Shown here: one piece after another, positions 255 to 13,009 of the stretch | Layout: every line of letters begins with the position of its first letter | How positions within the stretch are numbered: the first letter of the stretch is position 1 | Origin: Gammaproteobacteria bacterium | Lineage (GTDB): Bacteria > Pseudomonadota > Gammaproteobacteria > Pseudomonadales > Azotimanducaceae | DNA length: 42,066 bases | NCBI GenBank assembly: GCA_003248125.1 | Contig: QJXZ01000172.1 | Span: forward strand, 1-42,066 | Direction: 5' to 3' | The notes under the pieces: model-generated | The model's input: the letters and a program-made list of their open reading frames with translations, nothing else | The model's database searches: none | Told to the model about the DNA's origin: nothing | Made by a program: the position numbers and the translations under genes

Positions 255-1709
255 GTGAAGCCTCTTGAGAAGACACTGGTCTGGCTCTTTCCGACCCTCC
301 ACCTGCAAGGCACTCCTTGGCTGCGCCTGTGGCTCGAACGCGAACGAACTGATTTCGTGCGAATAGCCAGGATTCTTTACCCGCTGATTTCAGTTGCATA
401 CCTGTTGCACTTCTTCCTCTTCGATCTTCCGATGAATCTCCAGCCAATCGAGCATTGGAGGTACTTCCGCACGTCAATGTCGGGACTAGCCTTCGCCACA
501 TTCCTCTTCTACTGTTCCAACAATTTCATTCAGTCACGTTGGTACAAACTGCCCGCAGCAATCATGGGTGCAGTAATCTGTCACTTCCAGGCACGGGTGC
601 TTGTCTGGTACGAAGAGTCTGTCTATTTCTACGCATTTGCGTTTGTTATCCTAGCAACGATCATGCTCCGAACAGGTGTCGCGATCGGGCTTGCCTATGC
701 AACAACGCTGTTTGCAGTCCAATGGTCGTCCTACATCGAGGTTGAGCTCGATGAGCCACTCTTGTATAGCGCAACGGTGATCTCATCGTTGTTCATTTTG
801 ATGGCAAGGTCGACCCAGGCAGCTGAAGTAAAGTACTTCAGTGCAGCCCAGGAAAACGTCGCAAACCAACGAAGGCTCATCGAGCTTAACATTGAGTTCA
901 CGAGTCGCCTCCGGGCATTTCTCCCAAGAGAGATTTCTCGACGCCTGTTCGGATATGTTGAGAATCAACATATGACGGTATTGCAGGCCATAGAGGAGGT
1001 CCTCCGGCCGCGCCATAAGGACATCGCTTGCCTATTTAGCGACATTAGAGGATTTACGAAGTCGACTCAGGGCACCTCAACGTACGTGGATGAAGGTGTG
1101 ATCCCCAATGTACGACGGTGCGCACAAGCCATTGAGGATCATGGCGGGATTCCGAGGAAGGTCGGCGATCTGATTTTTGCCTATTTTGATAGCTCGGACT
1201 TTCAAACAAACGTGCGTAGGTGTATGGCCGCCGCGGAAGCGCTCGTCGAGGCAAACATTTCATTCAATGAATTAAGTCACGACTCCGTGAAGATCCGTCG
1301 GAACGTGCTCGTAGCATCAGGAAGCGCAGTCGTAGGGAATCTCGGCGGGTTCGACTCTTCCATCGAGATCACTGCGCTTGGAAACCCAGTCAATCTTCTC
1401 AGCCGCCTAGATGAGCTAGTAAAGAGCCCCTCCGTTCGAAACCGCATCGATCCGCAAGACATCGTTTTGGATGAACGAACGGCGAAGACGCTCCGCGAGA
1501 TGCCAGACTTCAGCCGCAAACTGACGGAACTATCGCTCACGGAGATAGGCGCGGCGATTCGCGATTTTGAAACAATCCCTAGAATCTGGATCTACAGAGC
1601 GGACCGTGTCGACGATCCGGACACCACAAGAAACCGTACGGAAGGAGCCACTCTTGAATCCCTACGCTACGCTCGCGGACAGATACAAGCTCTACGCCCC
1701 GGACCCTGA
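255..1709 (+). CDS. Membrane-anchored class IIIb adenylate/guanylate cyclase
   Basis: 484 residues. The N-terminal ~190 residues carry about five to six hydrophobic helices (around 40-57, 75-90, 100-117, 124-158, 168-185), followed by a linker and a class III cyclase domain at ~255-450. Metal-binding Asp are visible in FSDIRGF (D263) and KVGD (D305). The transition-state pair is N380 and R384 in NPVNLLSRL. The base-selecting position holds Thr (T373 in EITALGN) where class IIIa enzymes have Asp, which is the class IIIb pattern. Expected product is cAMP, less likely cGMP. The GTG start at 255 has only a weak GAGAAA box upstream, so a later start is possible. Its 3' end overlaps the next gene by 56 bases, which ties it to the acyltransferase operon. 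The membrane part is not one I recognise. Confidence 0.88.
   Translation: MKPLEKTLVWLFPTLHLQGTPWLRLWLERERTDFVRIARILYPLISVAYLLHFFLFDLPMNLQPIEHWRYFRTSMSGLAFATFLFYCSNNFIQSRWYKLPAAIMGAVICHFQARVLVWYEESVYFYAFAFVILATIMLRTGVAIGLAYATTLFAVQWSSYIEVELDEPLLYSATVISSLFILMARSTQAAEVKYFSAAQENVANQRRLIELNIEFTSRLRAFLPREISRRLFGYVENQHMTVLQAIEEVLRPRHKDIACLFSDIRGFTKSTQGTSTYVDEGVIPNVRRCAQAIEDHGGIPRKVGDLIFAYFDSSDFQTNVRRCMAAAEALVEANISFNELSHDSVKIRRNVLVASGSAVVGNLGGFDSSIEITALGNPVNLLSRLDELVKSPSVRNRIDPQDIVLDERTAKTLREMPDFSRKLTELSLTEIGAAIRDFETIPRIWIYRADRVDDPDTTRNRTEGATLESLRYARGQIQALRPGP
1641..1656 (+). promoter_or_regulatory. Shine-Dalgarno deciding a TTG start for the PilZ-acyltransferase
   Basis: GAAGGAG at 1641-1647 sits six bases before TTG 1654-1656, inside the end of the cyclase gene. 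It is the best ribosome site near the N-terminus. The in-frame ATG further upstream at 1567 lies deep in the cyclase coding region and has no comparable site. Confidence 0.7.
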
Positions 1710-3147
1710 ACTCCATGGGTCGTACTACCCGGCAGACATCTACCCCGGAGAATCGATCTATACGACGATACGAAACGCACAGACCGGTGAGTTGCTGGAG
1801 GCGAACGCCCGAGCGTGGAGACTTAGTCCGCTAGGCTTGGAGGTTGTCACCAAACGCAGCCGAGAGGGTCTCGTAGGCGTTCCAATTGACGTTGAGATGA
1901 GGGTAGGTCGAGAGGCATTCCACGTTACCGGCATCATTGTCGCGTCACATGGCAGCCAGCACGGCGAACCCCTGCTAGGGATTCGACTTGTAGAACTCGA
2001 TGGTCACGCAACTTACGAGGGTCCCGATCGACGAGACGGAAGTCGATGGTTGTTCGGGGATCAATTCTGTCCCATTTGCGTCGCGGCTAATCCTGCTCGA
2101 TTCAACGACTTCGTGTACCTCCGCGTCAGGGATGTGAGTTCTCGAGGTATGCGGCTGACAACCAGCTTGAGGAACAAATTCCTTATCCAGGGTATGACGC
2201 TCAGATGTCTTGTGAGTCTTCCGCTAGTGGCCCAGCTTTCGCTGAACCTGACAATCAAAAACATCGAACTCGAAAACGATCCGGACAACCCACTTCTCGC
2301 AATCGGAGCCTCTTTCGACTCAGCATCCCAGTCGGATCTGCAGCTTTTGGGTCAATACATCGTCCAATTCGGACAAGGTGCACAGCTTGATGAACTGAGA
2401 GCGTATGGACTCGTGCCAAAGTCCGTCTCCTCGGCAGTTGAGTTCTCGTTCGCAAGGACTATTCACGAATACGAACAGGTTCTAAGACTGCGACACATCG
2501 CATACACACAGGCTGGCAAAGTCGGTACTTCTCTGACGCCCCAAGATATGGGCGAGACCTATGACACTCGATCGCGAATTGTAATTGCCAAGTATCACGG
2601 TAAGGTCATCGCATCTGCGGGTCTCGTATTCAATGAATACCACGACAAAATGGAAATCGAAGACAGTACCGTCTGGCCGTCGGGTCTTCCGCGACGCGAA
2701 GAGATGGTGGAAGTCATCAGAAACTGTACGCACCCTTCCTACCGCGGCAACGACTTGTTGATGGCGATGTTCAGGTTCATCGCCATCACCGTTCTCCAAG
2801 CGGGACGCAAATACGTAGTCATAGGCACCACACCCGACCTCGTGGCTCTCTACAGTCGGATCGGAATGCACGATGTGAACCTTGAATACAATCACGGAAA
2901 ACTAGGCGGTGCTTTGCATAAGGTAATGCTAGGCGATATCCCCAAAACTATGGCTGGCGTTGGGATCAGCCCCATCTATTGGAATGCCCTATGGGCCGAC
3001 ACGGCAACATACATGCACACGAACGAGCTCGTTTCACCAACGGGGCTGGACTTGATTCGAACGCGTGCGTATGGAATTCTGAGGCCACTCTCTCTTCTGC
3101 TCCAAGCGAGAATGCAGCGCACTCGAAGGCATCGCCAGAAGGCATAG
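1654..3147 (+). CDS. PilZ domain fused to a FeeM-like N-acyl amino acid synthase
   Basis: 497 residues from the TTG start. Residues ~25-115 look like a degenerate PilZ-like barrel (RLSPLGLEV at 56-64). Residues ~120-230 form a second PilZ domain with the complete c-di-GMP signature: RxxxR as R127-DGS-R131, then D/NxSxxG as D160-VSSR-G165, 28 residues apart. Residues ~262-450 resemble the FeeM/autoinducer-synthase branch of the GNAT fold: FSFARTIHEYEQVLRLRHIAY, a strand with VIASAGLVF, then ATY. FeeM enzymes transfer a long-chain acyl group from acyl-ACP to an amino acid. The inference is an acyltransferase gated by c-di-GMP. It overlaps the cyclase upstream and lies 8 bases before a methyltransferase, followed by an RND exporter. 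Amino-acid and acyl specificity cannot be read. No ACP gene is present, so the housekeeping ACP would have to serve. Confidence 0.8.
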   Translation: MNPYATLADRYKLYAPDPELHGSYYPADIYPGESIYTTIRNAQTGELLEANARAWRLSPLGLEVVTKRSREGLVGVPIDVEMRVGREAFHVTGIIVASHGSQHGEPLLGIRLVELDGHATYEGPDRRDGSRWLFGDQFCPICVAANPARFNDFVYLRVRDVSSRGMRLTTSLRNKFLIQGMTLRCLVSLPLVAQLSLNLTIKNIELENDPDNPLLAIGASFDSASQSDLQLLGQYIVQFGQGAQLDELRAYGLVPKSVSSAVEFSFARTIHEYEQVLRLRHIAYTQAGKVGTSLTPQDMGETYDTRSRIVIAKYHGKVIASAGLVFNEYHDKMEIEDSTVWPSGLPRREEMVEVIRNCTHPSYRGNDLLMAMFRFIAITVLQAGRKYVVIGTTPDLVALYSRIGMHDVNLEYNHGKLGGALHKVMLGDIPKTMAGVGISPIYWNALWADTATYMHTNELVSPTGLDLIRTRAYGILRPLSLLLQARMQRTRRHRQKA

Positions 3148-3155
3148 AAGGCGGG

Positions 3156-3920
3156 GTGAACTGGAACGAGTACGCTAAGTGTTACGACCTACTTTGTGAT
3201 CTGAGCCGAATAGGCAGGCTGAGTCTACCGAGCGACGCAAGCATCCTCGATTTAGGTGGCGGAACGGGCAATTTCCTTTGTCACGGATTGCCGGCGGAGC
3301 TTCACCGAGCGAACCTATCTCACCTTGACTTCAATGAAGGCATGCTCGGAGCGGCGAGAGAAAAATACAAAAAGGAGGGACTAAGCGTCGAGTTGCTTCA
3401 CGCCGACGCTACAAGATACGAGCTGCCGCCTAGTTCGTTCGATTGCATATTGAGCGTCAATTCGTTGTACGCCATGTCTAATCCGGTCAGCGTGCTGCAA
3501 AAGGTCTATTCGGCGCTTAGACCAGGCGGTCTTTTGTTTCTTGTGAATCTCGGTAGGATCCAGAATACTCTCGACTGGACGCTGTACTTGGTCGCGACAA
3601 ACCTGATCCGCCTCGGACCTAGGAGGGTGATCGAGCTGCTCCGAAATGAAGGATCCACAATTGCCAAGGCCAACAGAAGGATTGCGTGCGAACAGAGGCA
3701 TCATCGGTATTGGAAACACACTACCGCGGAAATCGGAGAGCAACTCACGCGGATAGGGTTTCGTGTTGACGAGCTACGCCCTTGCTACCGCGGCTACTCA
3801 GACTTGGCGATTTGTACGAAACCAGGACCAAGCGCACAGTGCCTAGGCTTACAGTCTACGCAACTATTGCTTTCACCTTTACGTTCATATTCGCATCCTC
3901 GCTCGGTCTATCGAGACTAA
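3156..3920 (+). CDS. Class I SAM-dependent methyltransferase
   Basis: 254 residues from GTG 3156, preceded by AGAAGG at 3146-3151; upstream in-frame starts lie inside the acyltransferase gene. The N-terminus NWNEYAKCYDLL is typical of small-molecule methyltransferases. Motif I is ILDLGGGTG (30-38), the acidic residue region is HLDFNEGML, and a later SFDCILSVNSLY strand matches motif II/post-motif. The C-terminal part (about 150-210) is basic and amphipathic, as in lipid or polyketide modifying members. Given its place between an acyltransferase and an exporter, the likely role is methylation of the acylated product, for example as an ester or N-methyl. The last 40 residues overlap the exporter gene and look like non-conserved tail (LQSTQLLLSPLRSYSHP). 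Confidence 0.85.
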   Translation: MNWNEYAKCYDLLCDLSRIGRLSLPSDASILDLGGGTGNFLCHGLPAELHRANLSHLDFNEGMLGAAREKYKKEGLSVELLHADATRYELPPSSFDCILSVNSLYAMSNPVSVLQKVYSALRPGGLLFLVNLGRIQNTLDWTLYLVATNLIRLGPRRVIELLRNEGSTIAKANRRIACEQRHHRYWKHTTAEIGEQLTRIGFRVDELRPCYRGYSDLAICTKPGPSAQCLGLQSTQLLLSPLRSYSHPRSVYRD

Positions 3921-6067
3921 GTTCCTCCGTTGATACCCGGGTGTATTTCTCGCCTTCGAACACCCGATTTCAAGCACTCAAGACTTTCGAGGCGAAGTTT
4001 TCTGAGACAAATACACTCGTAATCTTCCTCCGGAAGCCTGAATCCCTGGAGGTAAACGAATTCCTCCAGGTAGTTCGTGAACTCCACGAAGGGTCGCTGA
4101 CCCTTCCTCGACTCGTCCGATCGGATTCGATCGTGAACTACCCGCTCATTTTCGGCGACGAGACGGGGATCGGCGTCAAGGACTTCATCGACTATGCGTG
4201 CGACGAATCGGGATGTCCAAGGTATCTCGAGATACTCGACGAACCAGGCGTAGTTAGCCGCCTCGTGTCTAAGGACGCGACAGTTCTGGCAGTTGCCATG
4301 ACGTTCGTGGTTCCACTAGCAACGTCCAGCGTGATTTCAGAACTCACAGAATCTGCGCGAGCGCTTGCGGCCACGATCATCAAGCCTCACGGAATTGAAT
4401 ACGCAATCGTGGGTAGCATTTCCCAGATGGAAGCGTTTAGAGAAGCGTCCCGAAAGGAGACATACAAGCTAATTGCATTCGCGCTCCTGTTGGTCGGAAC
4501 CAGCCTTTCCTTCCTCTATCGCCAGCTGCTAACCCCAGCGACGATCATGGTCATCGGGATGATTGGTGCAACGGCCAGCGTAGCCTCACTGGGGATTGCC
4601 GGCGTTCCCCTCAATACCTCCACTACCGCCTCACCAATCATCGCGATGCTGTTAGTTGTGGCAACTGCGACTCACGTGTTCGCGTCATTCCACCGAAGTT
4701 CCGCAGTCAGCCCTGCAGACGAGTCCATGCGAAGCGCCCTACGAGAGAATCGCGCTCCGATTATTCTGACCACATTAACATCGTGCGCCGGTTTGGCTTC
4801 CCTAAACTACGCGGACGCGCCACCACTCGCGCAACTCGGAAATTCCGTCGTGGCGGGAACGATAGTGGGAGTCGTCGCGCTCTATGTCTTCGCTCCACTT
4901 GCGGCGAGGTTGCTTCCACGCAAAATGCATAGAGAGATCGTCGGTTGGGCAATCGATATCGGAGACAGAAAGAACTCACAAATTGCCCTCGTTCTCGCAT
5001 TTGCTTCTGTCATTGCTGCGATGGGCGTCTCAAGGATCAACATTGATGAAGATTTCGTTGAGTATTTTTCAGACGCCTACGAGTTTAGAAGGGGAGCGGA
5101 CTTCGCCGCCCGCTATATGGCTGGACCAAAGTCTCTGCAGATTGCCGTCAATACGAACCGCAATGGCGGAATCGAGTCTCAGGAGGCGATTCAGTTCTTG
5201 CACACGTTCGAGACTTGGCTGCGGGGCTTGAAGCCGGCCGCGAGTGTCTGGGGAATCGCAGACCCACTTTTCCGACTAAAGAACACGCTGACTTCTCGAC
5301 AAGAGAGCTTCGACGACGAACTGGTCGCTCAATCCCTGCTGACATACGAGCTGTCACTTGGCGAAGGACAGGACCTTCGCGAATATCTAAGCAGCGACCG
5401 CGCCTCGACGCGCGTCTCGGTGCTGCTTGGACCAAGCAGTTCAACGACAATCATGGAACTGGACGCGGTGATCAGACAGTGGTTTCTTGAGGAAGCCCCA
5501 TGCGGATACTCAGTTTCCGTTTCTGGAATCAATGTTCCGATTGCGTACATGGCAGTCGAGAATATCGGCTCCCTCGTCAAAGCTGTATCCCTTACAGTGG
5601 TGGGCATGACAATTGCCCTCGGGATCTTCTTCCGCTCATTTCCGATTTCGATGATCTCTCTTGTGGCAATTGGTTTACCAATCCTTATGGGCTTTGGGAT
5701 CTGGGGTTGGTTCATTGGTGACATTGGGCTCGCGGCATCAGTCGTACTCGCTATCACGATAGGAATCGTGATTGACGACGCAATTCACCTTACATACCGA
5801 TTTTCCCAGGCGACGAGGAGCGGTATGAGCACAAAAGCAGCAAGGCGCTACGCGCTATCAAATGCCGGAGTTGCAATCACACAAACATCCATTGCGCTAA
5901 GCCTGGGCTTTCTTGTGCTCACCTTCTCTGGATTTCGGGTCAACGAGGTCTTGGGAATGTGCACAGCAGGCGTTCTTATCTGCGCGTGGATCTTCGACTT
6001 CTTCCTTCTTCCCTCGGCCCTCGCAATTGCATCCCGCTTCTCGGAGGCACCACGTGCCGCCCTCTAG
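3782..6067 (+). CDS. MMPL/RND-superfamily exporter (COG1033-like)
   Basis: 761 residues with the two-fold RND layout: a first helix at ~25-45, a periplasmic loop to ~225, a block of about five helices to ~385, a helix at ~405-425, a second periplasmic loop to ~590, and a final helix block to ~750. GIVIDDAIHLTYRF (~660) is the conserved acidic transmembrane motif of the second half, needed for proton coupling in RND pumps. This protein type exports lipids or acylated molecules across the inner membrane in many bacteria. The start is uncertain: TTG 3782, TTG 3812 and GTG 3839 are all possible. The last has AGGA 12 bases upstream and gives 742 residues. The gene overlaps the methyltransferase and ends 2 bases from the convergent hydrolase stop. 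No periplasmic adaptor or outer membrane channel gene is seen. Confidence 0.88.
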   Translation: MLPRLLRLGDLYETRTKRTVPRLTVYATIAFTFTFIFASSLGLSRLSSSVDTRVYFSPSNTRFQALKTFEAKFSETNTLVIFLRKPESLEVNEFLQVVRELHEGSLTLPRLVRSDSIVNYPLIFGDETGIGVKDFIDYACDESGCPRYLEILDEPGVVSRLVSKDATVLAVAMTFVVPLATSSVISELTESARALAATIIKPHGIEYAIVGSISQMEAFREASRKETYKLIAFALLLVGTSLSFLYRQLLTPATIMVIGMIGATASVASLGIAGVPLNTSTTASPIIAMLLVVATATHVFASFHRSSAVSPADESMRSALRENRAPIILTTLTSCAGLASLNYADAPPLAQLGNSVVAGTIVGVVALYVFAPLAARLLPRKMHREIVGWAIDIGDRKNSQIALVLAFASVIAAMGVSRINIDEDFVEYFSDAYEFRRGADFAARYMAGPKSLQIAVNTNRNGGIESQEAIQFLHTFETWLRGLKPAASVWGIADPLFRLKNTLTSRQESFDDELVAQSLLTYELSLGEGQDLREYLSSDRASTRVSVLLGPSSSTTIMELDAVIRQWFLEEAPCGYSVSVSGINVPIAYMAVENIGSLVKAVSLTVVGMTIALGIFFRSFPISMISLVAIGLPILMGFGIWGWFIGDIGLAASVVLAITIGIVIDDAIHLTYRFSQATRSGMSTKAARRYALSNAGVAITQTSIALSLGFLVLTFSGFRVNEVLGMCTAGVLICAWIFDFFLLPSALAIASRFSEAPRAAL

Positions 6068-6069
6068 CA

Positions 6070-6915
6070 CTACTTCGTATGCAGTCTATAGACCTCACCA
6101 TCACGCACCACGTGCCCCGCCGTTGGGGCGGCGAAATGAGTGCCAATGATTAGAACCGGCCGGTCAGCATATCGCGACAAGAACCCCAAGCGCGTCTCCG
6201 CACTCTGGGCTTGATCCACGTCGGCAAGGGAACTCCAATCGGGGTGAGCGATCTGGCACGGATGGTGGATCATGTCGCCGGTGATCACCGCCTCCTCGCC
6301 ACGGGAAGTGATATGCACACTCACATGACCTGGAGTATGTCCCGGCGTCGCTTCTAGGCGCACTTCCGGCGTGACAAGATGATCCTCTGGCACTAGATCG
6401 GCCAGTCCGGCGTCGAAAATTGGCTGCACTGAGTCCTCGACCACCGGGCCATACGTTTGCGGTTCGCTGCGCCAGTGATCCCATTCCGCCCGTGCGAAGA
6501 GATAGCGGGCACTCCCGAAAGTGGGGATCCAACGACCATTCACAAGGCGTGTGTTCCAACCAACGTGATCGACATGCATGTGTGTACACAGCACTGTGTC
6601 TATCGAGTCCGCCGGGTAGCCGGCCGATTCTAGGTCCGAAAGGAATCGAGTCTGCATGCCATTCCACTTTGGATACGTCCGAGTCTTGTCGTTGCCAATG
6701 CACGTGTCGACGATGATCCGCCGGTCTTCCGATTCGACCACGAACGAATGGATGCTAAGCACCATTCTTCCTTGCTCATCGATGAACGGTGCGAGCCACG
6801 GCAGCTGTCGCAGACGATCCGGTGTCGCCTGAGGTAGAAGGTGAGGGCCGAGTGAGGCCGTTGTCAGCTCTACGAACTGCGAGATCCTGACGTTTCCGAT
6901 CTGCCATACGAGCAT
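6070..6915 (-). CDS. MBL-fold metallohydrolase
   Basis: 281 residues from ATG 6915, chosen because GGAGG precedes it by five bases; an upstream TTG at 6930 has no such site. The zinc signature is THMHVDHVGW (H112, H114, D116, H117), with further ligands H193 in PGHTPGH, D214 in TGDMIHH and H260 in GTHF. This full dinuclear set points to an active hydrolase of the lactonase/glyoxalase II-like branch, where some members open N-acyl homoserine lactones and others act on esters or lactones in catabolic pathways. It ends tail to tail with the exporter. It may belong with the catabolic genes to the right, or it may degrade a relative of the acyl product made by the left operon; the sequence alone does not decide. 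Confidence 0.85.
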   Translation of the reverse strand: MLVWQIGNVRISQFVELTTASLGPHLLPQATPDRLRQLPWLAPFIDEQGRMVLSIHSFVVESEDRRIIVDTCIGNDKTRTYPKWNGMQTRFLSDLESAGYPADSIDTVLCTHMHVDHVGWNTRLVNGRWIPTFGSARYLFARAEWDHWRSEPQTYGPVVEDSVQPIFDAGLADLVPEDHLVTPEVRLEATPGHTPGHVSVHITSRGEEAVITGDMIHHPCQIAHPDWSSLADVDQAQSAETRLGFLSRYADRPVLIIGTHFAAPTAGHVVRDGEVYRLHTK

Positions 6916-7052
6916 TGTGTCCTCCAGCAAGCGTCCTTTTCAGCATCGTAGATCCCAGCTCGGCTATGAACCAGTGTCGATTTGACCATCTAGCCGCTTC
7001 TCGTCGAAGATCTGCCAAAGGGCCCAAGATGAACGGGAAAAGAGGGGGACGA

Positions 7053-11028: not shown

Positions 11029-12078
11029 GTGACGCTCGCACGCAAACTCGAGGCCTACCTGCGCCGGCAATGGCCAGCGCTCAGCGGTTTCACCATCGAG
11101 GAGCTGCATCAGATCCCCGGCGGCGCATCCCGTGAAACCTATCGGTTCGTTGCACGATACACGGAAGCGGGTGCGGACCGGCGCAAGGGATACATCTTCC
11201 GTCGCGACCCGAGCTCGAGCCTGATCGATACTGAACGGAGCCACGAATTTCGAACATACCAGGCGGTTTTCGGTACTTCGGTGCCGGTGCCCGAACCATT
11301 GATCCTCGAGAACGCCCCCGGTGATCTCGAGCGACCATTCTCCGTCATGGCGGAAGTGCCGGACTGCCAGAGCGCAACTGCGAACTTCGCCGTGCCACCC
11401 TACAGCGAGATGCGGCGCCAAATCGGCGAACAGAAATGGAGCATTCTCGGCCGTCTCTCGGCCATCAGCCCGGCCGAACTCGGTGTAGACAGCTTCATGA
11501 CAGTCGTCGAACCGGCAGATTGCGCGCGTCACGAACTCGACTACTGGGCGGGTGTCATCGAACAAGACGCACTCCACCCCCAACCTATCGCCATGGCGGC
11601 CATACGCGAACTACGGCGGCGCTATCCGCCGCCCGCACAACGCCTCTGCCTCGTCCATGGGGACTATCGTTCCGGCAACTTTCTCTACGACGAGCATGGG
11701 GATATCAAAGCAGTGCTCGACTGGGAGATGGCGCACATCGGTGATCCACTGGAGGATCTCGCCTGGTCGCTCGACCCACTCTGGCCATGGCCCGACAAGA
11801 CGCTCGCCGGTGGACTAATGCCACGGCACGAGGCGATCACCATCTGGGAGCGCGCGAGCGGGCTACGCGTGGATCGCGAGGCTTTCCGCTGGTGGCAGAT
11901 CTTTGCTTCGTTGAAGGCACTTGCGATCTGGATCTCTTCCAGCGAGGACTTCGCCAACGGCCAGACCAAAGAACCAATTCTCGCAGTCGCGGGGTGGCTC
12001 ATGACGGATCGGCAAAACCGGATACTTGTCGATCGACTCTCGCCGGTGAGTCGGCACCGATATGCGGAGGCGTTGTGA
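11029..12078 (+). CDS. Aminoglycoside phosphotransferase-like (ACAD10/11-type) kinase
   Basis: 349 residues from GTG 11029, with GGAG six bases upstream. Kinase motifs: the catalytic loop LVHGDYRSGNFLY with Asp and Asn, and the metal-binding ALDWE-type segment AVLDWEMAHIGDP. The N-terminal lobe carries a glycine-containing loop (PGGASRETYRF) and a Lys/Arg-rich strand. This branch of the APH superfamily commonly neighbours acyl-CoA dehydrogenases and SDRs in catabolic clusters, and its members are thought to phosphorylate hydroxyacyl-CoA or alcohol intermediates rather than antibiotics. It overlaps the next gene through GTGA. Confidence 0.87.
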   Translation: MTLARKLEAYLRRQWPALSGFTIEELHQIPGGASRETYRFVARYTEAGADRRKGYIFRRDPSSSLIDTERSHEFRTYQAVFGTSVPVPEPLILENAPGDLERPFSVMAEVPDCQSATANFAVPPYSEMRRQIGEQKWSILGRLSAISPAELGVDSFMTVVEPADCARHELDYWAGVIEQDALHPQPIAMAAIRELRRRYPPPAQRLCLVHGDYRSGNFLYDEHGDIKAVLDWEMAHIGDPLEDLAWSLDPLWPWPDKTLAGGLMPRHEAITIWERASGLRVDREAFRWWQIFASLKALAIWISSSEDFANGQTKEPILAVAGWLMTDRQNRILVDRLSPVSRHRYAEAL

Positions 12079-12500
12079 TTCCAAAGGCGAAGACAGCGCT
12101 GCAAGACCTCGCCGGCAAGCTGATGATCGGCATCGCGGCCGAAACCAAGACCACCTATGCCGCGAGCAGCGTCGGCATGATCGGCATGCTACTGCAATGC
12201 CTGGCGAAGGAACTGGAGCGCGGCGTAGATACGCGCGTGTGCGATATCGAGGAGACCCGGGTGCTGCTCACGAATGCAACGTCAAATCTGCCGCAACGGC
12301 TCGCGATCGAGGTCGATAGGTTTCTGCAAACAAAGCCGGCAAGTCTGCTCCTGTCGGACGTGACGGCACTGCACGCACGCGCCTTAGAGCTCGTCACGCG
12401 GTTACACGAGCATGCAGAGGCCGCTGGTAATGAATCCCTCAATCGCGAAATCTGGTCCCTCTTGGAACGAATGGCAGATCGACACGCACTGGACTTCTAG
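12075..12500 (+). CDS. Small helical protein coupled to the phosphotransferase
   Basis: 141 residues from GTG 12075, preceded by GGAGG at four bases and overlapping the kinase stop codon (GTGA). Predicted almost entirely helical, with no signal peptide; the segment SSVGMIGMLLQCLAKELERG is the most hydrophobic. I do not recognise the family with confidence. Tight coupling to the APH-like kinase suggests a partner or accessory subunit. It meets the SnoaL-like gene tail to tail, overlapping by four bases. Longer in-frame reading upstream lies inside the kinase gene and is not credible. Confidence 0.75.
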   Translation: MIPKAKTALQDLAGKLMIGIAAETKTTYAASSVGMIGMLLQCLAKELERGVDTRVCDIEETRVLLTNATSNLPQRLAIEVDRFLQTKPASLLLSDVTALHARALELVTRLHEHAEAAGNESLNREIWSLLERMADRHALDF

Positions 12501-13009
12501 CGCAGGCGATAACTCGGGTCATCCGGCCATCGCAACCCGCGCGTCTTCAGTCCCGAGTAAAGACCGCCTTCCCAACGCGCAGTCGAAGGGCCGTTCTGAT
12601 TCCAATCCATGACATACACCCGCGCGGCGATTCGCCACTCGCCATCACGACGTTCGAAGCGATCGACGTAGCGACCGCCAACCACCATCTCCTGGTCGCC
12701 ATTCTCGCCAGCAACCAGATGGTAGGCCACGCAATAGGTTTCGACGTTGGCGCAGGTGCCGTCGAGATCGATCGTGACGTTGCTGATCTGATGCATCGTC
12801 TGCTTCATCTGCTTGAGTGCTGGAACGACGTACTCCGCGAATTGCCAAGCGTTGCCATTGAACGTACCGTGGTCGTCGGTCGCTTCAGGCCAATAGACCG
12901 ACTTCAGTAGCGTCATGTCGCAGCGATCGATACCGCGGCAGTAGCGCGCCAGAACCTCGCGTATGGCCTCGCGGTCTGCGAGCGTCTGTATGTCGGCGGC
13001 GACTTTCAT
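12497..13009 (-). CDS. SnoaL-like / NTF2-fold protein
   Basis: 170 residues from ATG 13009, with AAGGA six bases upstream. The pattern IQTLADREAIREVLARYCRGIDRCD at the start, then HGTFNG and a beta sheet with VGGRYVDRFERRDGEWRI, is that of the SnoaL_4 ring-hydroxylase-small-subunit/ketosteroid isomerase-like fold. Such proteins are frequent in steroid and aromatic catabolic clusters, where some are dehydratases or isomerases. The Tyr/Asp/His positions (YCRGIDRCD, NVTIDLDG) are compatible with an active pocket. It is the last gene before tRNA-Lys. Confidence 0.85.
   Translation of the reverse strand: MKVAADIQTLADREAIREVLARYCRGIDRCDMTLLKSVYWPEATDDHGTFNGNAWQFAEYVVPALKQMKQTMHQISNVTIDLDGTCANVETYCVAYHLVAGENGDQEMVVGGRYVDRFERRDGEWRIAARVYVMDWNQNGPSTARWEGGLYSGLKTRGLRWPDDPSYRLR

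Follow-up and report, generated by a model that had tools for sequence, protein, structure and literature searches.

The DNA analysed here, which we call the window, is one whole contig of 42,066 bases (QJXZ01000172.1) from a gammaproteobacterial genome of the family Azotimanducaceae, assembled as 4.24 Mb in 383 contigs. Positions 255-6067 are filled by four genes, all on the + strand, that form a putative operon. They encode a membrane-bound class III cyclase, a protein that joins PilZ-like domains to a FeeM-type N-acyl amino acid synthase (NAS) domain, an S-adenosylmethionine (SAM)-dependent methyltransferase (MT), and a transporter of the MMPL/RND kind. Four overlapping or adjacent rightward genes had been described here in the original prediction, and we confirmed them with refined limits. 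The features are as follows.

255-1709, + strand: class III adenylyl/guanylyl cyclase, GTG start; six transmembrane (TM) helices at about nucleotides 318-818, catalytic domain at about 1002-1604
1654-3147, + strand: synthase with the domain order PilZ-PilZ-NAS, TTG start, open reading frame (ORF) open from 1567; tandem PilZ-like region at about nucleotides 1717-2322, FeeM-type N-acyl amino acid synthase domain at about 2434-2997
1640-1647, + strand: ribosome-binding site GGAAGGAG of the synthase gene, within the end of the cyclase gene, read from the sequence
3156-3920, + strand: class I SAM-dependent methyltransferase, GTG start; a longer ORF from 2979 overlaps the synthase gene
3782-6067, + strand: MMPL/HAE3-type RND exporter, TTG start; alternative starts at 3812 or 3839
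174-189, + strand: CRP/Vfr-type operator-like site, TGTGA-cgggtg-TCATA, 65 bp upstream of the cyclase start
1-153, + strand: C-terminal end of a gene of the D-cysteine desulfhydrase family, cut by the contig end

The cyclase and synthase genes overlap by 56 bp, and the synthase most likely begins at TTG 1654, six bases past GGAAGGAG and inside the cyclase gene. A gap of 8 bp separates synthase and methyltransferase, and the methyltransferase and RND genes overlap. The Pfam scan was made on the longest ORFs, which for the methyltransferase meant the longer frame 2979-3920.

Recurrence of the gene set

Scanning the GTDB species genomes with an alignment of the cyclase gave twenty-one loci besides the window (numbered with an L below). 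By their labels, which are as deposited and unverified, eighteen are Pseudomonadales, Pseudomonadaceae or Gammaproteobacteria, two are of Bdellovibrio type, and one is 'Alphaproteobacteria'. Five of the loci share contigs with the further loci L012-L016, and the genomes with a cyclase in the family and order samples below are for the most part those of the twenty-one loci; the counts are not independent. The PilZ-NAS gene is present in the cyclase's gene string in all twenty-one loci, directly downstream in twenty (split in L031) and after the RND gene in L037. A methyltransferase was found in seventeen (some 7.6 kb away in L021) and an RND gene scoring over 300 bits in twelve; weaker RND matches, in L036 and L040, fell short of 300 bits and were left out of the exporter count. 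All four genes occur in eleven loci, where the order is cyclase-NAS-RND-MT, as opposed to cyclase-NAS-MT-RND in the window.

Within the window's family, 20 of 206 genomes carry the cyclase, spread over 8 of 37 genera. Nineteen of these twenty genomes have the synthase on the cyclase's contig; in the twentieth (G461) the cyclase is cut short by the contig end, and the synthase was not found. The sample of the order includes three cyclase genomes among 390 (the window's own and two of the twenty-one loci), all with the synthase, as well as eight other genomes that carry a distant relative of the synthase alone, without the cyclase. From these presence counts, the cyclase-synthase pair is the core of the operon, and methyltransferase and exporter are common additions. 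The original prediction had proposed a recurring set of four genes: the recurrence is borne out, but neither the exporter nor the methyltransferase is obligatory.

Searches with the synthase found its protein in eight of fifty-eight genomes, the window's own counted; two of these matches were weak and had no cyclase in the fetched stretch (L010, L011). The single window synthase sequence, used as a query, gave no matches in the first genome-contig scan and none in plasmids. Four loci with a distant, cyclase-free NAS were looked at, and an RND gene lies beside two of them (L051 and L052, not L018 or L053). In both (L051 8982-13132, L052 5968-10068), a distant PilZ-like NAS adjoins the MMPL/RND gene, with TetR-like and P450-like genes, identified by eye, beyond; these stretches lack a cyclase or methyltransferase of the operon types. 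In the two loci labelled as Bdellovibrio type, a hydrophobic protein of about 190 amino acids follows the cyclase-NAS pair and replaces RND and methyltransferase (L023 12938-13525, L024 12920-13492).

Neither the operon nor a cyclase tied to an NAS is described among the full-text literature matches listed, a coverage that leaves subscription papers and preprints outside. An NAS-PilZ fusion in the reverse order, activation of NasP by cyclic AMP (cAMP), and a cluster of NAS, methyltransferase and transporter genes are already known from published accounts (PMC4897644, PMC7293339).

The cyclase

Sequence families barely recognize the cyclase. There was no Pfam or NCBIfam match at E 0.1, and the Pfam family Guanylate_cyc (PF00211) reached E 0.13 and 12.3 bits with the window protein, under its cut-off of 21.9. 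The other five of six scanned members gave no PF00211 match at E <= 10, in scans where the HMMER filters drop most weak matches. A profile of twenty-two cyclases did match solved cyclases, with adenylate cyclase 1wc1 (CyaC) at 6e-13 and CyaB at 8e-13. Six residues (D263, K302, D305, T373, N380, and R384) are invariant in all twenty-two proteins, and we take them to be the class III catalytic set. In class III enzymes this set comprises two metal Asp residues, a base-selecting Lys and Thr/Asp, and a transition-state Asn and Arg.

The AlphaFold model of the cyclase (pLDDT 86.6, pTM 0.62) shows six helices in the membrane and a long one that leads on to the catalytic domain, with helices at residues 22-57, 65-87, 99-118, 125-138, 142-162, and 167-222. 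In this part of the protein D57, W68, R72, and Q112 are invariant. Its catalytic fold matches CyaC (1wc5_D, Z 20.9, root mean square deviation (rmsd) 2.1, 181 residues aligned). The top Foldseek match of the whole model is adenylyl cyclase 9 (AC9; 7pde_A, 447 columns, TM-score 0.60 by query, rmsd 5.8), and human AC9 9u3u aligns over residues 20-450, through the membrane domain (Z 19.2, rmsd 4.7, 391 aligned). To full-length Rv1625c (7yzk), the Foldseek match is weak, with a TM-score of 0.33.

The operon cyclase thus has the layout described for other class III adenylyl cyclases with six TM helices, both mammalian (PMC11606603) and mycobacterial Rv1625c (PMC12505454): a six-helix membrane domain, a long helix, and a class III catalytic domain. 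It differs from them in having a very divergent catalytic domain, as the Pfam E-value indicates, and in being tied to lipid-making genes, which would supply a candidate natural ligand. Recent work points to lipids as what such membrane domains sense. Fatty acids are reported to inhibit Rv1625c through its membrane domain, plain C18:1 fatty acids being active on this bacterial enzyme (PMC12505454), and fatty acids and anandamide to act on the membrane domains of mammalian cyclases (PMC11606603). The title of a 2025 review describes their function as a blind spot (PMC12414865).

Two further measures were not used as receptor evidence. Conservation is higher in the outer (periplasmic-side) half of the membrane domain, at p 0.08. 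The membrane domain co-diverges with the synthase at r 0.77, against 0.53 with its own catalytic domain, values that are uncorrected for species history.

The synthase

The C-terminal domain of the synthase matches the Pfam FeeM family (PF21926) at 1.8e-8 and 34.8 bits, above the cut-off of 27, and at 37.9 bits in another scan. In fold comparisons of the synthase model (pLDDT 85.2), FeeM itself (2g0b_H) aligns with Z 18.5, rmsd 2.3, and 166 aligned residues (TM-score 0.73 by target length), and the N-acyl homoserine lactone (AHL) synthase LasI with Z 16.7. The acyltransferase therefore falls within the FeeM and autoinducer-synthase group to which it had been assigned before any database search. 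The GNAT acetyltransferase 5jph heads the fold list at Z 18.6, and since it ties with FeeM, the fold alone cannot fix the substrate. A sequence profile of the synthase did not find FeeM in the PDB at E <= 1; the relationship is seen by Pfam and by fold.

We aligned twenty-one synthases, leaving out the split one of L031, whose gene lies in two overlapping frames (11400-12958) through a frameshift or an assembly error. A candidate catalytic glutamate, E353 (codon 2710-2712), is invariant in all twenty-one, and lies about one residue from Glu95 of FeeM by counting along the superposed range rather than by residue-by-residue superposition. The window's own genome holds two further, weaker FeeM matches.

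Proteins of the PilZ family that bind cyclic di-GMP (c-di-GMP) carry the motifs RxxxR and [D/N]xSxxG. The second PilZ domain of the window synthase is canonical in this respect (R127xxxR131 and D160xSxxG165), and both motifs are intact in nineteen of the twenty-one synthases, the window's included, which lends support to the c-di-GMP control proposed in the original prediction. The top Foldseek match of the whole synthase model is MrkH, a protein with two PilZ domains bound to c-di-GMP (1e-8); the TM-score of 0.41 by target and rmsd of 14 indicate that the PilZ domains of the synthase are placed differently from those of MrkH.

The closest described enzymes are Nas343 and Nas354, NAS-PilZ proteins that make N-acyltyrosines and whose regulation by c-di-GMP was proposed by the authors (Thies et al. 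2016, PMC4897644). As described there, the NAS domain is N-terminal and a single PilZ domain C-terminal, while here two PilZ-like domains precede the NAS domain. In addition, the authors presumed the Nas343 and Nas354 genes to lie outside any biosynthetic operon, in contrast to the grouping with cyclase, methyltransferase, and exporter found here. NasP (Clardy and Brady 2007, cited in PMC4897644) likewise links cAMP to N-acyl amino acid synthesis. NasP is reported to be activated directly by cAMP, whereas the operon has a PilZ-bearing synthase, a separate gene for making cAMP, and a CRP-type site that suggests transcriptional control.

The methyltransferase and the exporter

The methyltransferase matches Pfam Methyltransf_25 at 8e-18 and is 33-40 per cent identical to the methyltransferases of four related operons. 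Its nearest solved structures are phosphoethanolamine N-methyltransferases (3.6e-18). The RND protein matches MMPL (PF03176) in two stretches at 8e-22 and 78 bits, and the HAE3 model TIGR00921 at 3e-29 and 101.6 bits, under the subfamily cut-off of 351.9. Parts of MmpL4/5 and of AcrB-type pumps are also matched, and the protein is 31-32 per cent identical to the RND proteins of three related operons.

Similar combinations have been reported elsewhere. In the putative stieleriacine cluster of Stieleria maiorica (PMC7293339), NAS genes are grouped with a methyltransferase gene and putative transporters. That cluster is described with four NAS genes, a putative tyrosine C-methyltransferase, and a desaturase, and its description mentions no cyclase or PilZ domain. 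The tyz cluster of Mycobacterium tuberculosis (PMC10404671) has an acyltransferase modelled as nearest to FeeM and AHL synthase, makes acyl-Tyz lipids, and has an mmpL gene nearby; its enzymes TyzB and TyzC are unlike those of the operon, and again the account of it mentions neither a cyclase nor PilZ. N-acyl alanine methyl esters (NAMEs) from Roseovarius (PMC11580390) belong to the class that an NAS and a methyltransferase would most simply yield. They come from different organisms than the operon's hosts, and the same report states that no candidate NAME synthase genes were found.

The upstream CRP-type site

The site TGTGACGGGTGTCATA (174-189) differs from TGTGA-N6-TCACA at a single position. 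It is the sole match in the window at one mismatch or fewer, although chance alone would give 1.34 over the full length of the window. Because the window site alone is no more than chance, we tested the other twenty-one loci. Within 250 bp upstream of the cyclase, the motif occurs with at most one mismatch in six loci and with at most two in twelve, compared with three and five of eighty-four intergenic controls (Fisher p 0.002 and 6e-7). One of the three controls at one mismatch or fewer comes from L035, where a divergent kinase gene has its upstream region in common with the operon. A looser control of 302 ORF starts gave 1.7 per cent at one mismatch or fewer and 6.3 per cent at two or fewer.

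We also ran a test of 5,120 palindromic patterns (1,024 five-mers at five spacings), from which the window was left out because its site had first been spotted by eye. No other pattern exceeds the CRP motif on either count, and the next best reaches three loci at one mismatch or fewer. The host encodes a protein with a cyclic-nucleotide-binding domain and the helix GCSREMVGRVL, presumably a CRP/Vfr-like regulator, and its genome has ten GGDEF matches. The cAMP control put forward earlier for this operon is strengthened by the conserved sites.

Proposed mechanism and alternatives

We think it probable that the operon is a dedicated module for an acylated amino acid, used in signalling or as a surface lipid, that is gated by c-di-GMP and wired to cAMP feedback. 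In such a module, the FeeM-type enzyme would couple a fatty acyl group, probably from acyl carrier protein, to an amino acid, and c-di-GMP would gate this acylation step through the tandem PilZ region of the synthase. The methyltransferase would then cap the product, a carboxyl methyl ester being the simplest outcome, and the MMPL/RND protein would carry the capped molecule out, perhaps as a signal. The six-helix cyclase would answer a cue from the membrane or periplasm by making cAMP; we think that this cue is the lipid product or its acyl precursor. With a CRP/Vfr-type regulator, cAMP would act at the site upstream of the cyclase and close a feedback loop, positive or negative, on the operon. 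The operon would in this way unite cAMP and c-di-GMP at a single biosynthetic step.

A more specific version, which we regard as rather doubtful, makes the operon a lipid circuit in which an AHL-synthase-like enzyme produces an N-acyl amino acid (or its ester), the RND protein exports it, the six-helix cyclase is its receptor, cAMP and CRP form the loop, and c-di-GMP is the gate. Its most speculative part is the sensing of the operon's own product by the cyclase. Four things suggest this role: the constant pairing of cyclase and synthase, the AC9-like membrane domain, the reports of lipid action on Rv1625c and mammalian cyclases, and a laboratory-built chimera in which the quorum-sensing receptor CqsS is reported to drive a cyclase (PMC4821796). 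In every full-length relative found, the cyclase is encoded next to a lipid-making enzyme, which would allow a likely ligand and its receptor to be produced jointly. If the cyclase were the receptor, the operon would be a natural counterpart of that chimera and would encode a ligand-receptor pair for an adenylyl cyclase membrane domain side by side, with a cognate receptor that is neither a LuxR protein nor a histidine kinase.

Several observations weigh against the proposed module or this version of it. An exporter was not counted in nine of the twenty-one loci and a methyltransferase not in four (L025 stops at a contig end), so the methylation and export steps are not universal. Homology does not point to a methyl ester, since the solved enzymes nearest to the methyltransferase are phosphoethanolamine N-methyltransferases. 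For the synthase, an arginine at alignment column 323 that is kept in the other nineteen sequences is glycine in the window and alanine in L021. Both PilZ motifs are missing from the synthases of L039 and L041, and the Pfam PilZ match (PF07238) reaches 22.4 bits, just under the cut-off of 22.5. Among the fifty structural matches listed for the cyclase, only two, both AC9, span the membrane part; most cover the catalytic part alone, so the membrane part is barely tested by them. Nine of the twenty-one loci have no CRP-type site at two mismatches or fewer, and because the loci are related, the p-values for the site are optimistic. The host genome has four other class III cyclase matches, so the operon cyclase is not its only possible source of cAMP. 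Finally, a cyclase that detects a different cue, such as plain fatty acids, is almost as good a fit as one that detects the operon's product.

This last point leads to a serious contender, although we lean slightly against it: the product may be an exported surfactant, antimicrobial, or membrane-modifying lipid that its producer does not sense, with the cyclase answering an unrelated cue and setting expression through CRP. Surfactants and antibiotics are reported among known NAS products (PMC4897644), the bacterial cyclase Rv1625c is reported to respond to plain C18:1 fatty acids (PMC12505454), the operon's RND protein is of the MMPL kind, and an RND gene accompanies the cyclase-free NAS of L051 and L052, two of the four loci looked at. 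Left unexplained is why the cyclase subfamily never turned up without the synthase, either in the twenty-one loci or in the family genomes, where the single exception is the contig cut inside the cyclase.

We consider it unlikely that the GNAT domain instead acylates a lipid head group, a homoserine lactone-like acceptor or a protein, with the operon remodelling an envelope lipid. The tie between 5jph and FeeM in the fold list, with LasI next, would fit this, as would the failure of the sequence profile to reach FeeM in the PDB and the phosphoethanolamine substrates of the nearest solved methyltransferases. Set against it are the match above cut-off to FeeM, a named Pfam family, and the N-acyltyrosine made by NAS-PilZ fusions (PMC4897644).

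Base composition and ancestry

The GC content of the operon is 53.3 per cent, compared with 59.6 per cent for the rest of the window, and the codons AGA, AGG, and ATA make up 2.5-5.1 per cent of the four genes, compared with 0.5-2.7 per cent of twelve picked window genes. The earlier remark that A-rich codons are commoner here holds broadly, except that the RND gene (2.5 per cent) is inside the range of the twelve other genes. The different ancestry that the original prediction read into these codons did not stand up. GC in the cyclase and synthase genes is below that of their flanks in twenty of twenty-one relatives (the exception is L024), by a mean of -5.4 points, and the GC of the operon tracks that of its host (r 0.83 over twenty-two). 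These findings led us to reject the idea that the A-rich codons stem from recent horizontal transfer; the operon's low GC could be due to weak codon selection, among other possibilities.

The gene at the left edge of the window belongs to the D-cysteine desulfhydrase/D-cysteate sulfo-lyase family and is 46 per cent identical over 48 amino acids (E 1e-10) to the gene that immediately precedes the operon in L033. The sharing of this upstream gene favours residence over recent arrival. An inositol-monophosphatase-like gene, identified by eye, lies within the flanks of thirteen of the twenty-one loci. A recently acquired island of accidental gene content, which the low GC and A-rich codons relative to most of the remaining window might have suggested, is thus highly improbable and already contradicted by the low GC of homologous operons in step with their hosts, by the recurrent chromosomal neighbourhood, and by the upstream gene common to the window and L033.

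Neighbouring genes

A metallo-beta-lactamase-fold hydrolase is encoded at 6070-6930 on the - strand, convergent to the operon and 2 bp past the RND stop. Among NCBIfam families it is matched best by the quorum-quenching lactonases AidB (2.8e-20) and YtnP (3.7e-18), both far under their cut-offs. It was not found in the five operon loci searched for it, the other sixteen being outside that search.

A histidine kinase with six TM helices lies in the flanks of twelve of the twenty-one loci, and a piece of one is found at a contig end of L028's genome. Other kinases of that cluster (L024, L033, L041, and a second in L037) were judged different by their length and start. In the 206 genomes of the family, the cyclase occurs in twenty, the kinase in thirty, and both in fifteen (Fisher p 7e-11, relatedness ignored). 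Fifteen genomes have the kinase without the cyclase, and one of these fifteen has an NAS. The kinase that matches best in the window's genome lies on a different contig, 5.3 kb long, next to a response regulator (L050 1389-3702), and is sister to some operon-linked kinases in a tree. Since kinase-only genomes occur and the window's match lies off the contig, we rejected the kinase as a fixed fifth part and regard it as an associate of the operon.

We compared the membrane domains of the operon cyclase and the kinase with each other. A shared receptor domain was rejected, as the profile comparisons gave p 0.41 and 0.11, and unrelated membrane proteins gave 0.12 to 0.86. CqsS and LqsS are described as six-helix receptors of lipophilic quorum-sensing signals (PMC4821796), and a six-helix kinase is a recurrent neighbour of the operon too; here, by contrast, the constant partner of the synthase is the cyclase. 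In two cyclase-free genomes (L055 8308-13705 and L056 6046-11379), a relative of the kinase is followed by a response-regulator-like gene and is divergent to an MMPL/RND gene, in what looks like another regulatory module for lipid export.

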